19,620 nt of DNA from Acidobacteriota bacterium (GTDB lineage: Bacteria; Acidobacteriota; UBA4820; DSQY01), in contig JAEMPZ010000227.1 of NCBI GenBank assembly GCA_022759065.1, positions 1-19,620 of the forward strand, written 5' to 3'. A program made the position numbers and the translations under genes. The notes under the pieces were generated by a model, which saw only the letters and a list, made by a program, of their open reading frames with translations, was not told the DNA's origin and ran no database searches. Of the stretch, positions 9,513 to 14,696 are shown piece by piece; position 1 is the first letter of the stretch, and each line of letters begins with the position of its first letter.

Positions 9513-10334
9513 ATGTCCGTCATCGCCATATCGCGAGGCTCCCTGAGGGCCGCGACGCAACTGGCCCAAGGCCTCGGGGAGAGGCTTGGCAGCAGAGTGG
9601 CAAACCGCGAGGAGATTCTTGTCGCGGCTGAACGCTACGGCATAGGAGAGACGGGGCTTGAGATGCGGCACATTCTCTCCAAACATCCGCCAGGCTTTTG
9701 GGAACGCTACGCCGACGCCCGCCGCCACTATCTCGCATGCTTCAAGGCGGCGCTGCTTGATGCGGTCTTGGCGGGACCGCTCGTTTACCACGGCCATTTA
9801 GCCCACCTGCTTCTCCAGGAGGTCCCCTTCGTCTTGCGCGTGCGCGTCAATTCGCCGCTCGAAAATCGCGTGGAGGCCATGATGGCCGAACTGGGCGTCA
9901 CGAGGTACGACGCAATCCGCAGAATTGAAGCCATAGACGACGAACGCAAGAGGTGGACTGAGTTCCTTTACGGCGTGGATCTAATGAGCCCCGCCCATTT
10001 TGACCTGGTCCTGAATCTTGGCAGGATGACCATCAGCGACGGCGTTGAAATGGTTGCCAACGAGGTGCAGAAAAAACCTTTTGCCCGAGCCGAAGACGCT
10101 CTTCGCGCCGTGAGAAACCTGCGCCTTGCAACCGTGGCCGAGGTGGCCTTGATGCACAACCCGGACACCTACGGCCTTTCTTTTGCAGTGACCGCCGACT
10201 CGGATGCCGGCAAAGTGAAAGTGGAAGGCCGGTTTGAAGCGGGCAATGGCCGGCTGATAGAAAGTCACGTACGCTCCGCCCTCTCGGGCCTTAAAGAGGC
10301 CAAGGAAGTCGAAGTGCGCGTGAAGGCTGGTTGA
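9513..10334 (+). CDS. Cytidylate-kinase-like protein with possible BON-like C-terminus
   Basis: A 273-residue protein. Residues 1-200 resemble the cytidylate-kinase-like family: MSVIAISRGSLRAATQLAQGLGERLG, then ANREEIL, then the DAIRRIEAIDDERKRW lid-like segment and HFDLVLNLGRM. The region usually carrying the glycine-rich nucleotide loop (SREYGSGG in relatives) is reduced to SRGSLRAA, so nucleotide binding may be altered. The last 70 residues (LATVAEVALMHNP to VEVRVKAG) look like a BON-type alpha/beta module, low confidence. It starts with ATG at 9513 after GGAGG and lies between DsrE-family genes. Its substrate and its link to sulfur transfer are unknown; a role as a sensor or protein kinase-like regulator is possible but unsupported. 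Confidence 0.75.
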   Translation: MSVIAISRGSLRAATQLAQGLGERLGSRVANREEILVAAERYGIGETGLEMRHILSKHPPGFWERYADARRHYLACFKAALLDAVLAGPLVYHGHLAHLLLQEVPFVLRVRVNSPLENRVEAMMAELGVTRYDAIRRIEAIDDERKRWTEFLYGVDLMSPAHFDLVLNLGRMTISDGVEMVANEVQKKPFARAEDALRAVRNLRLATVAEVALMHNPDTYGLSFAVTADSDAGKVKVEGRFEAGNGRLIESHVRSALSGLKEAKEVEVRVKAG

Positions 10335-11399: not shown

Positions 11400-11446
11400 A
11401 CACAACATATAGCTTGACATTTTGCCTTGACCCTATTATATTGTGG
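11400..11446 (+). promoter_or_regulatory. nrdD promoter with tandem NrdR-box-like sites
   Basis: A sigma-70-type promoter, TTGACA (11414-11419), 17-bp spacer, TATATT (11437-11442), predicts a start near 11449. Two 16-mers resemble the NrdR consensus acaCwAtATaTwGtgt: 11400-11415 (13 of 16, overlapping the -35) and 11431-11446 (11 of 16, overlapping the -10). Their starts are 31 bp apart, the three-helical-turn spacing typical of tandem NrdR boxes. NrdR represses ribonucleotide reductase genes in many bacteria. Confidence 0.65.
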
Positions 11447-11449
11447 CAG

Positions 11450-11625
11450 AGCGGGTGCCTGTGCGATGCCAGGCCAAAAGGGAATCCGGTGAGAATCCGG
11501 GGCTGCCCCGCAGCGGTAAGCGAGAACGGTTCCACCAAAGGCACTGGCCTTTAAGGCTGGGAAGCGGTGGACGGTAGGAATCCGGCTCAGGCCGAAATGC
11601 TCGCAAGCCCGAAGACCTGCCCGCG
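11450..11625 (+). ncRNA. Cobalamin (AdoCbl-type) riboswitch
   Basis: The conserved core is plain: GCCTGTGCGATGCCAGGC, then AAAAGGGAATCCGGTGAGA, CCGGGGCTGCCCCGCAGCGG (the B12 box region), and a 3' part with ATGCTCGCAAGCCCGAAGAC closing at CCTGCC. It lies in the leader of the nrdD gene, downstream of the TTGACA-17-TATATT promoter. Cobalamin binding normally switches the gene off. Class III reductase does not need B12, so this arrangement would switch it off when B12 can support a B12-dependent (class II) enzyme elsewhere in the genome (inference). Confidence 0.93.
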
Positions 11626-11626
11626 G

Positions 11627-11677
11627 CGGCGCGCGAATTAGCGCGCGCCGTAAAACCTCAAGCGCCTCGCGGGAGGG
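11627..11677 (+). promoter_or_regulatory. Riboswitch expression platform: GC hairpin and sequestered Shine-Dalgarno
   Basis: A perfect 9-bp GC stem (11627-11635 with 11642-11650) follows the aptamer. It is not followed by a U-run, so termination is unlikely. Downstream, CCTC at 11665-11668 can pair with GAGG at 11673-11676, which is part of the GGGAGGG ribosome-binding site for the ATG at 11686; a second CCTC lies at 11656-11659. This points to control at translation initiation. Confidence 0.5.
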
Positions 11678-11685
11678 CTACTTGA

Positions 11686-13734
11686 ATGCGCGATTCCTTG
11701 ACTAGCCGGCCTTTTGTCACCAACGGGACAAACCTTAAATGGGTAATCAAGCGAGACGGGTCCCGCATCCCATTTGACTTTGACAAAATCTTTTCTGCCA
11801 TCGAGCGAGCCGGAGCCGCCACCGGGGAGTTTGGTGCTGAAGAGAGCGCGCTGCTTTCAGCGCAAGTCTTTAAGGTCCTCTGCCACAAGTTTGAGAAAGC
11901 GCCGCCTCACATAGAACACATCCAGGACGTGGTGGAACAGGCGCTCATTTCGGCGAATCACTTCGCGACGGCACGCGCCTACATCATCTACCGCGAGAAG
12001 CACGCGACGCTCAGAGAGGACGCGAGAACGGCGGTTGACGTAGAGAGTTCCATCAACGAGTACCTCGACCGGCTTGATTGGCGCGTCAATGCCAACGCCA
12101 ACCAGGGTTATTCGCTGGGCGGCCTCATCCTAAACGTTTCAGGCAAGGTGGTGGCCAACTATTGGCTTAACCACGTTTACCCTCCAGAAGTGGGAGCAGC
12201 CCACCGCGATGGCGACATTCACATCCATGACCTGGACATGTTATCTGGGTACTGCGCCGGCTGGTCGTTGCGCATGCTCCTATCCGAAGGTATAAACGGC
12301 GTGCCTGGCAAAGTCGAAGCGGCGCCGCCAAAACACATGTCCAGCGCGGTGGGCCAAATCGTGAATTTTCTCGGCACGCTGCAAAACGAATGGGCAGGCG
12401 CGCAGGCCTTCAGCTCTTTCGATACCTACATGGCTCCATTCGTAAGAAAGGACAAAATGTCTTATGAGGAGGTGCGGCAGTGCATACAAGAAATGGTTTA
12501 TAACCTTAACGTGCCTTCTCGCTGGGGAACCCAGACTCCTTTTACCAATCTCACCTTCGACTGGACGTGTCCTGACGACTTGAAGGAGCAACGCCCCTTC
12601 ATCGGAGGCGAGGAGATGCCTTTTTTATACGGCGACCTGCAGCGAGAAATGGACCTCATAAACCGCGCCTACATTGACGTAATGGAGGCGGGAGACGCGA
12701 AGGGCAGGGTTTTTACCTTCCCGATTCCGACTTACAACATCACCCCGGAATTCCCTTGGGAAGACGATAACAGCACGCGGCTTTTCGCCATGACGGCCAA
12801 ATACGGCCTCCCCTATTTTCAGAATTTTCTAAATTCCGACTTAAAGCCGAACATGATTCGCTCCATGTGCTGCCGCCTCCAACTTGACCTGCGCGAACTT
12901 CTAAAAAGAGGCAACGGTCTTTTCGGAAGCGCGGAACAGACGGGTTCCATTGGCGTGGTTACGATCAACTGCGCTAGGCTAGGGTACCTTCACAAAGGCG
13001 ACAGGCGCGGCCTCCAAGAACGGCTCGACCACCTTTTAATCCTGGCCAAGTCCAGCCTTGAAATAAAACGAAAAGTCATTCAAAGGCTTATGGAGGCGGG
13101 ACTATACCCATATACAATGAGATACTTGGGGACATTTCGCAACCATTTTTCGACCATCGGGGTTAATGGAATAAACGAAATGGTTCGCAACTTCACCGGT
13201 GGCAAAGAGGACATAACCAGCGACGGCGGCCGAGCAATGGCCGTTGAGTTCCTTGAGCGGGTTAGAGGCAGAATCATCGCCTTTCAGGAAGAAACTGGCC
13301 ACCTATACAACCTTGAGGCGACCCCGGCCGAAGGCGCCACCTACCGCTTCGCGAAGGAGGACGCAAAACGATTCCCAAACATTCTGCAGGCAGGCACAAA
13401 GGACGCGCCGTACTACACCAACTCAAGCCAATTGCCAGTCGGTTTCACAGACGACCCATTTGAGGCTCTTGAGCACCAGGAACCGCTCCAGAGGCTTTAC
13501 ACCGGCGGCACCGTTCTGCATCTATATATGGCCGAAAAAATTACAAGCCCAGAGGCGTGCAGGAACCTGGTAAAGCGGGTTCTGGAACGTTTCAGAATTC
13601 CGTACATTACCGTTACTCCCACGTTCTCCATTTGCCCCAAACACGGGTACCTTTCCGGGGAACATAAGTACTGCCCACTATGCGACGAATATTTGCTTGC
13701 GGCAAAGCGAGCAGGGGCCGGCGTGGCTGGCTGA
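11686..13734 (+). CDS. nrdD: Anaerobic (class III) ribonucleotide reductase, large part lacking the glycyl-radical segment
   Basis: A 682-residue class III ribonucleoside-triphosphate reductase. An ATP-cone (about 15-105, LKWVIKRDGSRIPFDFDKI) precedes the barrel. Active-site candidates are C190 (SGYCAGWSLR) and C395/C396 (RSMCCRLQ). The C-terminal zinc motif is visible as C650, H653, C663 and C666 (CPKHGYLSGEHKYCPLCD). The protein then stops after about 16 residues, before the RVxGY glycyl-radical loop every complete NrdD needs. That loop is encoded by the next ORF. ATG 11686 follows GGGAGGG. The TGA (13732-13734) is followed by an in-frame TAA, so the split is not one miscalled stop. Expression should respond to the B12 riboswitch and NrdR-like boxes. 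Confidence 0.92.
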   Translation: MRDSLTSRPFVTNGTNLKWVIKRDGSRIPFDFDKIFSAIERAGAATGEFGAEESALLSAQVFKVLCHKFEKAPPHIEHIQDVVEQALISANHFATARAYIIYREKHATLREDARTAVDVESSINEYLDRLDWRVNANANQGYSLGGLILNVSGKVVANYWLNHVYPPEVGAAHRDGDIHIHDLDMLSGYCAGWSLRMLLSEGINGVPGKVEAAPPKHMSSAVGQIVNFLGTLQNEWAGAQAFSSFDTYMAPFVRKDKMSYEEVRQCIQEMVYNLNVPSRWGTQTPFTNLTFDWTCPDDLKEQRPFIGGEEMPFLYGDLQREMDLINRAYIDVMEAGDAKGRVFTFPIPTYNITPEFPWEDDNSTRLFAMTAKYGLPYFQNFLNSDLKPNMIRSMCCRLQLDLRELLKRGNGLFGSAEQTGSIGVVTINCARLGYLHKGDRRGLQERLDHLLILAKSSLEIKRKVIQRLMEAGLYPYTMRYLGTFRNHFSTIGVNGINEMVRNFTGGKEDITSDGGRAMAVEFLERVRGRIIAFQEETGHLYNLEATPAEGATYRFAKEDAKRFPNILQAGTKDAPYYTNSSQLPVGFTDDPFEALEHQEPLQRLYTGGTVLHLYMAEKITSPEACRNLVKRVLERFRIPYITVTPTFSICPKHGYLSGEHKYCPLCDEYLLAAKRAGAGVAG

Positions 13735-13782
13735 CAATAATCGTATTCGCCTAAAACGCGACTGATCAAAAAGGAGCCAACG

Positions 13783-13998
13783 ATGAGCGAAAAAGAACGG
13801 ATAGCGCTTCGAGACGATGAGAGACAGCCTTGCGAAATATGGACGCGGGTTATGGGCTACCATAGGCCCGTGTCTTCATTCAACATTGGGAAAAAGTCGG
13901 AAGCAAGCGAACGCAAATATTTTCGCGAGGAGCCACATGACGCCCTTCCCCAAATCCAGCATCCCCACGTCCCCCTCGCGGAATCACGCCGGCCCTAG
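13783..13998 (+). CDS. Free-standing glycyl-radical segment of NrdD
   Basis: A 71-residue ORF holding the part missing from the upstream NrdD: RQPCEIWTRVMGYHRPVSSFNIGKKSEA with Gly25 in the RVMGY motif as predicted radical site, and RKYF as in NrdD C-termini. It is in the same frame as nrdD but separated by two in-frame stops and 48 bp. It has a strong ribosome-binding site, AAGGAG (13771-13776), six bases before the ATG, so it is probably translated separately. The last 20 residues (EPHDALPQIQHPHVPLAESRRP) do not look like NrdD and may be tolerated read-through. It resembles in principle the free glycyl-radical spare part GrcA (YfiD) of pyruvate formate-lyase. The two polypeptides must assemble for activity (inference). 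Confidence 0.83.
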   Translation: MSEKERIALRDDERQPCEIWTRVMGYHRPVSSFNIGKKSEASERKYFREEPHDALPQIQHPHVPLAESRRP

Positions 13999-14012: not shown

Positions 14013-14696
14013 ATGCCCAAAGAGGTTTTGCAAGTAGGCGGAATTACGCCCTTCACCACGCTGGATTTTCCAGGAAAGCTTGCAGCAGTGTTTTTTTGCC
14101 AGGGCTGCCCCTATGCATGCCCATATTGCCACAACCCGCATCTTCGCCCTTTTTCGGCCTCAGATCTAATACCGTGGCCTAGGATCACCTCCTTTCTGAC
14201 CAGAAGGCGCGGAATGCTTGATGGGGTCGTCTTCAGCGGCGGAGAACCGACGATTCAACCGGCGCTTGTCAGCGCCTGCGAGGAAACCAGGACTATGGGT
14301 TTCAATGTCGCACTGCACACGGCCGGATCCTCGCCTAAAACGCTTGCCGCGGTCCTTCCTTTCGTAAGCTGGGTTGGCCTTGACATAAAAGCCCCTTTTG
14401 ACGCCTACGAACAAGTAACGGGAGCGCCGAGAAGCGGGGAAAAGGCAAAAGCCAGCTTGGAAATCCTTTTGTCTAGTGGCCTCCCCTATGAATGCCGAAC
14501 CACCTTCTGCGAACAGGCGCTGCCACCTGGCGAAATAATCAAGGTTGCCACCCAACTGGCCGAAATGGGGGTTAAAGACTACGCCCTCCAGGTCGGCCGC
14601 TCGATACAAGGCCAACGCCTAGCCTCGGCAAGCAATGTGAGAGCGGTCGCGCAGATAATGAAAAAACTTTTCCCCAATTTCGTACTACGTGACTGA
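14013..14696 (+). CDS. nrdG: NrdG-like radical-SAM activating enzyme
   Basis: A 227-residue radical-SAM protein of the anaerobic ribonucleotide reductase activase type. The cluster motif CPYACPYC (C32, C36, C39, CX3CX2C) follows TTLDFPGKLAAVFFCQG, and the GGEP motif (VVFSGGEPTIQ) contacts SAM. It would generate the glycyl radical on the small peptide encoded 14 bp upstream. It is somewhat longer than E. coli NrdG (about 154) and similar in size to the NrdG2/PflA-like type. The ribosome-binding site is weak (AGG just before the ATG), so translation may depend on the upstream ORF. Its stop is at the start of the next intergenic region, with no clear terminator. Confidence 0.9.
   Translation: MPKEVLQVGGITPFTTLDFPGKLAAVFFCQGCPYACPYCHNPHLRPFSASDLIPWPRITSFLTRRRGMLDGVVFSGGEPTIQPALVSACEETRTMGFNVALHTAGSSPKTLAAVLPFVSWVGLDIKAPFDAYEQVTGAPRSGEKAKASLEILLSSGLPYECRTTFCEQALPPGEIIKVATQLAEMGVKDYALQVGRSIQGQRLASASNVRAVAQIMKKLFPNFVLRD

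Follow-up and report, generated by a model that had tools for sequence, protein, structure and literature searches.

A candidate two-polypeptide class III ribonucleotide reductase and its separate, sometimes mobile, glycine-loop tail

Class III ribonucleotide reductases (RNRs) are described, in the accessible portions of the literature, with the radical glycine placed within the catalytic chain. The window analysed here, a whole stretch of 19,620 nucleotides from an acidobacterial genome, raises the question of what an nrdD gene does when this glycine is encoded elsewhere. Its large nrdD open reading frame (ORF) ends short of the glycine, and the missing segment, hereafter the tail, is found in a small ORF of its own, followed by a gene for the activase NrdG (Table 1). 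Such an arrangement could be a broken gene, a pair of pieces joined during translation, or an enzyme working as two polypeptides.

Table 1. Features of the nrdD locus, in window positions
Feature	Position	Strand	Description
Cobalamin riboswitch, 5' of nrdD	11436-11638	+	Rfam RF00174, 114 bits
nrdD large subunit	11686-13734	+	682 aa; ATP-cone, catalytic domain, MCCR finger loop, presumed C-H-C-C zinc ligands
Intergenic stretch	13735-13782	+	48 nt; holds in-frame TAA and AAGGAG ribosome-binding site
Tail gene, predicted glycyl-radical subunit	13783-13998	+	71 aa; PF13597 positions 530-562 of 562
nrdG, radical-SAM activase, NrdG2 type	14013-14696	+	TIGR02495 over cut-off; PF04055

The operon and its genome

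The three genes are co-directional, each has its own start, and all lie downstream of the B12 riboswitch. In a Pfam scan, the large ORF matches PF03477 and positions 2-528 of the 562 in PF13597 (579 bits) and nothing else, so that the class I/II catalytic family PF02867 is absent from it, while in an NCBIfam scan it exceeds the cut-off of NF006126 (PRK08270) with 1119 bits. The ORF is open along its entire length and keeps the active-site residues that were checked. Thus, C190, M394-C395-C396-R397, and C650, H653, C663 and C666, the last four of which are taken here to be the zinc-binding residues, are invariant in a 25-row alignment, the finger-loop cysteine motif reading SMCCR at 393-397 in the window and MCCR in 25/25 rows.

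As the initial annotation had pointed out, the large ORF ends 16 residues past the last zinc cysteine (CPLC) and holds no radical glycine. Profile positions 530-562 are confined to the small ORF, which scores 30.4 bits over them (cut-off 26.2). Its radical glycine is predicted to be residue 25, within CEIWTRVMG25YHRPV, and the segment T21-P29 is invariant in an alignment of separate tails (21/21). The tail motif, written as a regular expression, has no match in 5.9 Mb of base-shuffled window sequence on both strands. Scans of the tail against Pfam and NCBIfam at E <= 0.1 return NrdD models only, with none for GrcA/YfiD, and its matches among PDB sequences were only designed proteins (E 0.014-0.028), which were discarded.

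The large ORF and the tail share a frame, their starts being 699 codons apart (13783-11686), and are separated by two in-frame stops, TGA at 13732 and then TAA. Frame and stops agree with what had been reported earlier for the junction; the spacing given then, 49 bp, is corrected to 48 nt. The AAGGAG that had been assigned to the tail does precede it, ending 6 nt 5' of the ATG, and nrdG starts 14 nt past the tail stop (TIGR02495, E 6e-58). Further upstream of nrdD, the window also carries a cytidylate kinase-like gene (9513-10331, PF13189) among DsrE-like genes; the genes around it presumably form an Hdr/Qmo-like run.

The source genome is a metagenome-assembled genome (MAG) of 1.9 Mb, 86.5% complete, and within that portion no second NrdD match was found, so the full-length second copy that would have spoken for a decaying gene did not appear. 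Elsewhere in the genome, a PF02867 match lies in a 901-aa open frame on contig C92, and this chain would be a class II NrdJ. Control by B12 of a B12-independent RNR isozyme is an established regulatory logic. Given this logic, the riboswitch 5' of nrdD and the NrdJ-type chain, the window nrdD is probably a back-up to NrdJ, used under B12 shortage. The riboswitch is not a general feature, as only 2 of 13 other loci have one.

The same genomic context lends itself to another explanation, in which a full-length nrdD was recently broken by stops in the window lineage and is now a decaying pseudogene. NrdD is sporadic in the family: two same-genus genomes (one of them 64% complete) give no match, and the 8 same-genus and same-family genomes searched yield a single, truncated one. 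In this same-family genome (G004), only the counterpart of window residues 19-325 is left (78.5% identical), near the same deoxyhypusine-synthase-like gene as in the window (named by eye), and the 11 kb of this locus contain no match to the tail or to nrdG. The remnant reads as a gene loss under way. Because same-genus genomes lack NrdD and a same-family copy is truncated, nrdD seems dispensable in the window's family, and the window copy could be early in decay. The status of the source genome as a MAG, and its class II RNR, likewise count against a functional two-piece enzyme. The window copy's own sequence, however, shows no sign of decay.

Conservation and apparent repeated origin of the split

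A scan of GTDB genomes, many of them MAGs, gave 534 relatives, of which the best 80 NrdD loci were analysed. In 78 of these 80, the large ORF stops soon after CPxC and a separate RVMGYHRP ORF follows downstream (in one locus, L051, continuing past the contig edge). Short NrdD-tail proteins next to truncated nrdD, which the initial annotation had proposed to look for, are thus the rule among the nearest relatives, and the continuous ORF that it had named as contrary evidence occurs in one fused locus only (L080). The remaining locus of the 80 (L056) has no nearby tail; its tail sits on another contig of the same MAG (G068), before an NrdG-like ORF (judged by eye). Since 78 of these best 80 loci have the same separate tail, an assembly error in the window is implausible. 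The hosts among the best 80 include Thiobacillus thioparus, Acidovorax temperans, Hydrogenophaga pseudoflava, Marichromatium gracile and Roseospirillum parvum, as well as Elusimicrobia and Geobacteraceae MAGs.

Over 79 pairs, including the window, the tail lies in the frame of the large ORF in 27 cases and in the other two frames in 21 and 31. As all three frames are used, no frameshift or readthrough product is implied. The chosen tail starts are ATG in 78 pairs and GTG in 1, and a Shine-Dalgarno-like site stands 5' of 79/79 of them, the starts themselves having been picked by that site. Joining of the two pieces at translation into one chain, by readthrough or frameshift, would fit the frame shared by tail and large ORF in the window and in 26 relatives, out of the 78 whose tail is adjacent, as well as three loci of the window's phylum (L225-L227) in which a single in-frame TAG is followed by ATG; but 52 of the 79 tails lie in other frames, the spacing runs from overlap up to 376 nt, and the tail of G068 is on a different contig, so that this explanation is hardly credible.

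The tail is a conserved coding sequence in several phyla. The median dN/dS of the 78 tails is 0.177 (from the 1898 of 3003 pairs whose dS lies between 0.15 and 1.5, the pairs not being independent), and in a 37-codon core the variability is 0.398 at the third codon position versus 0.154 and 0.140 at the others, values that indicate purifying selection. With the same split in Pseudomonadota, Elusimicrobiota and others, ribosome-binding sites and apparent selection on the tails, and a window large ORF that is fully open with its checked active-site residues kept, decay of the window copy is judged very improbable. For the split family, the pseudogene and readthrough readings were both rejected on the 78 split loci among the best 80, the mixed frames and the selection on the tails. 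Complementary charge at the junction was considered and not used: over 78 loci, the mean charge is +0.6 past CPxC in the large chain (from -4 to 4) and -2.4 in the tail on the N-terminal side of its cysteine (from -6 to 3).

The frequency of the split differs among the genome sets surveyed. In the class of T. thioparus, which we take to be Gammaproteobacteria in GTDB, 38 of 369 genomes are NrdD-positive (from a table read by the author), with 28 split, 7 fused and 3 fragments that were set aside (G406, G299, G236). In the family of M. gracile (Marichromatium), 57 of 96 genomes are positive: the tail is separate in 52, of which 50 show it as a distinct match and two across one stop (G856, G899), 1 is fused (G845), and 4 are undecided, being large chains with no tail found (G839, G861) or fragments (G858, G912). 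One genome counted as split, G900, has internal stops in the large chain. In the window's phylum, 69 of 396 genomes match, with a separate tail ORF in 11 (G463 being doubtful), one frame to the profile end in 52, and neither profile end nor tail in 6 undecided ones (G448, G668, G766, G700, G596, G004). Splitting is therefore the majority form in the class and family samples and the minority form in the window's own phylum. Besides, in-frame insertions in NrdD, mostly of about 930 nt at profile position 156-158, were seen in G893, G910, G854, G847, G840, G879, G911, G913, G856 and G899, likewise in locus L143 (G203) and, by eye, apparently in the viral locus L313; these are probably inteins.

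A tree of the large chains, with the tail columns excluded, was built by a quick method from 75 rows (25 loci from the nearest 80, together with sequences from plasmids, surveys, phages and the window) and leaves 30 of 72 inner branches open. Loci L118, L128, L129, L239, L241, L242 and L244 were left out, as were L007, L008, L115, L131 and L143, which had no long match. On this tree, the split or fused label changes 9 times, at least 4 of them forced by starred branches. In the window's phylum, three lineages have junctions of their own: L225-L227; L230; and L231/L232/L006. The junction of L225-L227 has conserved GGAGG, TAG and ATG (GGAGGNNTAGATG), so only one stop parts the two ORFs; fused relatives exist in the same family (L005, L240). 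From the label changes, these separate junctions and the fused kin, it appears that cutting, or rejoining, of the gene has happened repeatedly at a single point, after the zinc site and before the glycine loop.

By eye, both pieces of L225-L227 carry helix-like extensions, as if joined by a two-stranded coiled coil. A frameshift was considered for the junction of G030 and rejected, as G483 (L231) and G625 (L232) share this junction type with ribosome-binding sites; on re-reading, G030 is a lineage of its own.

Plasmids, viral contigs and hosts with mobile tails

The tail query matches 29 plasmid records, of which 17 were examined. Among these 17, 11 encode the tail separately next to the large chain, the two parts are fused in 4 (two Acidiphilium, Actinomyces oris and Geoalkalibacter), and a tail alone is present in 2, both from Allochromatium; A. 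vinosum pALVIN01 carries such a lone tail. The split plasmids come from Cupriavidus necator H16, C. metallidurans CH34, Paracoccus denitrificans, Bradyrhizobium japonicum, Shinella, Azospira, Aquabacterium, Sulfuricystis, Thiothrix, Cereibacter and Sulfuricurvum kujiense, with the large ORF frameshifted or interrupted in B. japonicum p2S06B and Thiothrix fructosivorans. Together with the split in the nearest loci and the selection on the tails, these operons on finished plasmids support the functional two-piece enzyme that the initial annotation had thought likely. In Azospira sp. I09, the split nrdD, its tail and nrdG on plasmid pAZI09 (L120) are flanked by the genes for the alpha and beta chains of a class I RNR, all in an operon-like run.

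One of these cases is plasmid pHG1 of C. necator H16, whose operon is split into a 676-aa large chain, a 66-aa tail (WP_011154154.1, H16_RS32675) and NrdG. According to the accessible part of one paper, which cites Siedow 1999, H16 cannot denitrify completely unless it has the pHG1-borne NrdDG, and the defect seen in a strain lacking pHG1 is offset by B12 (PMC2864759). As H16 NrdDG is reported to be essential and its operon is split, the split enzyme very probably works in the living cell, the literature basis concerning H16 NrdDG as a whole. RefSeq labels the tail 'nrdD' and the neighbouring large chain 'ribonucleoside triphosphate reductase', and one Paracoccus ferrooxidans record labels the tail hypothetical.

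Tails are also found alone in viral contigs. An IMG/VR scan with an alignment of 21 tails as query gave 139 relatives, and in the best 80 of these the tail forms an ORF by itself, the locus examined holding no large NrdD ORF (80/80); as a control, the NrdD model detects the large ORF in 9/9 NrdD-bearing loci outside its training set. In the 50 of the 80 taken as whole viral records, the only NrdD match is of tail type (50/50, 48 of them exceeding the family cut-off), with one exception, a second match below threshold in G818, and no class I or II RNR was found (0/50). A second scan gave 73 loci, 24 of them new by contig names, for about 104 contigs in all; two of its loci have a large NrdD, L297 with a separate tail and L313 fused. 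Some contigs end within the locus, and L316 is without the glycine motif. The searches were seeded with split tails, and some patterns include the glycine motif, so that these counts are not a measure of glycine loss. With the chosen starts, viral tail lengths have quartiles of 53, 60 and 70 aa.

Phage functions lie beside the tail in 6 of 7 viral loci (20 neighbour proteins scanned), including terminase, head-tail adaptor, helicase, tail fibre, tape measure, integrase, reverse transcriptase and DNA polymerase; in the seventh, L150, only a DNA methyltransferase was recognized among the scanned neighbours. Among cultured phages, credible matches are limited to ANMV-1 and one contig with a fused NrdD. 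The ANMV-1 protein (KP703175.1, 25525-25959; 144 aa), with a possible zinc finger and an NrdD-type glycine loop, bears the annotation anaerobic ribonucleoside triphosphate reductase, and none of the 69 annotated features is a further nrd gene; a scan of viral contigs with it found no relatives. The gene lists of ANME-1 viruses include NrdD, with no detail in the accessible part (PMC9894754). The fused contig (MT835493.1, 2033-4441) encodes an NrdD whose C-terminal domain resembles glutaredoxin by eye; a thioredoxin-reductase-like ORF comes next.

Several hosts carry a split operon and mobile tails at once. G848 has its operon (L324) and two extra tails (L317, L318), one of them near a major head protein gene and with the same ORF as viral L199 over 130 residues printed. 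G877 has three tails, one of them flanked by genes for a portal and a minor head protein. In G336, the operon is accompanied by a second tail (L133, contig C3), which neighbours SSB and RecT-like genes as well as an NrdJ-like ORF. G893 combines a chromosomal operon with a tail on a 175,924-bp contig, and this tail ORF matches that of Allochromatium tepidum pAt1. Extra mobile tails occur in 3 of the 57 positive genomes of the family survey and 1 of the 38 of the class survey. Three of five extra tails (L133, L317-L320) lie beside phage-type genes, with neighbours scanned for L133, L317 and L319, and in L317, L319 and L320 (the last two from G877) a cysteine-rich stretch is added before the tail.

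These cysteine-rich N-termini, present in several tails, suit the alternative that phage and plasmid tails are repurposed small proteins, such as inhibitors at the NrdD docking site, or have an unrelated function. The radical-subunit role of the viral tails is predicted from sequence, and the protein family that is the best match for 6 of 7 tail queries, PHROG 4132, is labelled 'unknown function'. Nevertheless, MGYxRP with its glycine is kept in 80/80 viral tails (best 80 of 139) and in further variants read, and 78 of 79 viral tails score higher against split host tails than against fused domains (database of 115 split and 21 fused). Repurposing is considered unlikely, although it is the most serious of the alternatives.

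The proposed enzyme and known systems

Taken together, sequence evidence gives high confidence that the locus encodes a functional class III RNR of two polypeptides, the large NrdD and the tail, plus the activase NrdG. The large NrdD would contribute the allosteric ATP-cone, the catalytic domain with its thiyl-radical finger loop and the zinc site, and the tail would supply the radical glycine loop. The tail may dock where the C-terminal domain lies in fused NrdD, NrdG would install the glycyl radical on it, and the glycine loop would then pass the radical to the finger-loop cysteine, steps modelled on the fused enzyme as described in the accessible parts of two papers (PMC11226230, PMC9669993). 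MCCR is given as the double-cysteine finger-loop type in the part consulted of the latter (PMC9669993), and the loop of the window NrdD is compatible with formate or thioredoxin as reductant.

Oxygen cleaves NrdD at the glycyl radical, according to the accessible part of another report (PMC3019208). Because the cut falls at the radical glycine, the split may provide a replaceable part, the cell throwing away a tail of 60-70 residues rather than an enzyme of 750. By analogy with GrcA, the radical subunit may act in trans, 'swappable' and suppliable by mobile elements; a subunit acting in trans would be expected to turn up unlinked in a host, and alone in phages and plasmids, as the tail does. 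From their distribution, phages, prophages and plasmids might exploit the split, maintaining or boosting the host's anaerobic dNTP synthesis with the tail alone, and phages might control its dosage. More generally, the balance leans towards class III RNR being commonly a two-subunit enzyme with a diffusible, exchangeable radical subunit, of which mobile elements carry only the part of about 50-70 residues, re-arming host dNTP synthesis; PHROG 4132 would then include such phage radical subunits.

A separate radical subunit would offer a natural system for the study of glycine-loop assembly, activase recognition and the repair of oxygen damage. It also exposes an annotation trap, in which the tail is named 'nrdD' or hypothetical. 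In our judgement, few auxiliary metabolic genes whose chemical role can be assigned would be smaller than the lone phage tails. No report of a split NrdD radical domain or of phage NrdD tails was found in the open literature searched, and an earlier mention is possible in Siedow 1999 or in Wei 2014 (Neisseria bacilliformis).

The closest known systems are the class III NrdD/NrdG of Thermotoga maritima, phage T4 and Prevotella copri (PF13597), which have the same elements in the same order with NrdG adjacent; here, in contrast, the glycine loop is a separate protein, typically of 50-70 aa and sometimes unlinked or mobile. An RNR chain is likewise cut near its C terminus into two genes in the class II NrdJa/NrdJb, as the accessible part of its description shows, but that enzyme uses a B12 radical, and its small piece holds IscU-like and zinc domains and no radical residue (PMC9669993). 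Phage nrd genes split by introns, inteins and homing endonucleases also have their frames in pieces (PMC3653736, accessible part); there, a whole gene is interrupted, whereas here a defined domain is an independent, conserved and sometimes solitary gene. Finally, GrcA (YfiD) and phage T4 Y06I, the latter a phage version of the autonomous glycyl radical cofactor for pyruvate formate-lyase, are, as is predicted for the tail, small radical-glycine proteins, and they complete an enzyme without a working glycine, as the tail would; spare parts for other glycyl radical enzymes are raised only as speculation in the part of that work consulted (PMC8683613). GrcA, however, repairs an enzyme that has a glycine of its own, while here the large chain never has one, and the tail belongs to another family, that of the NrdD models.
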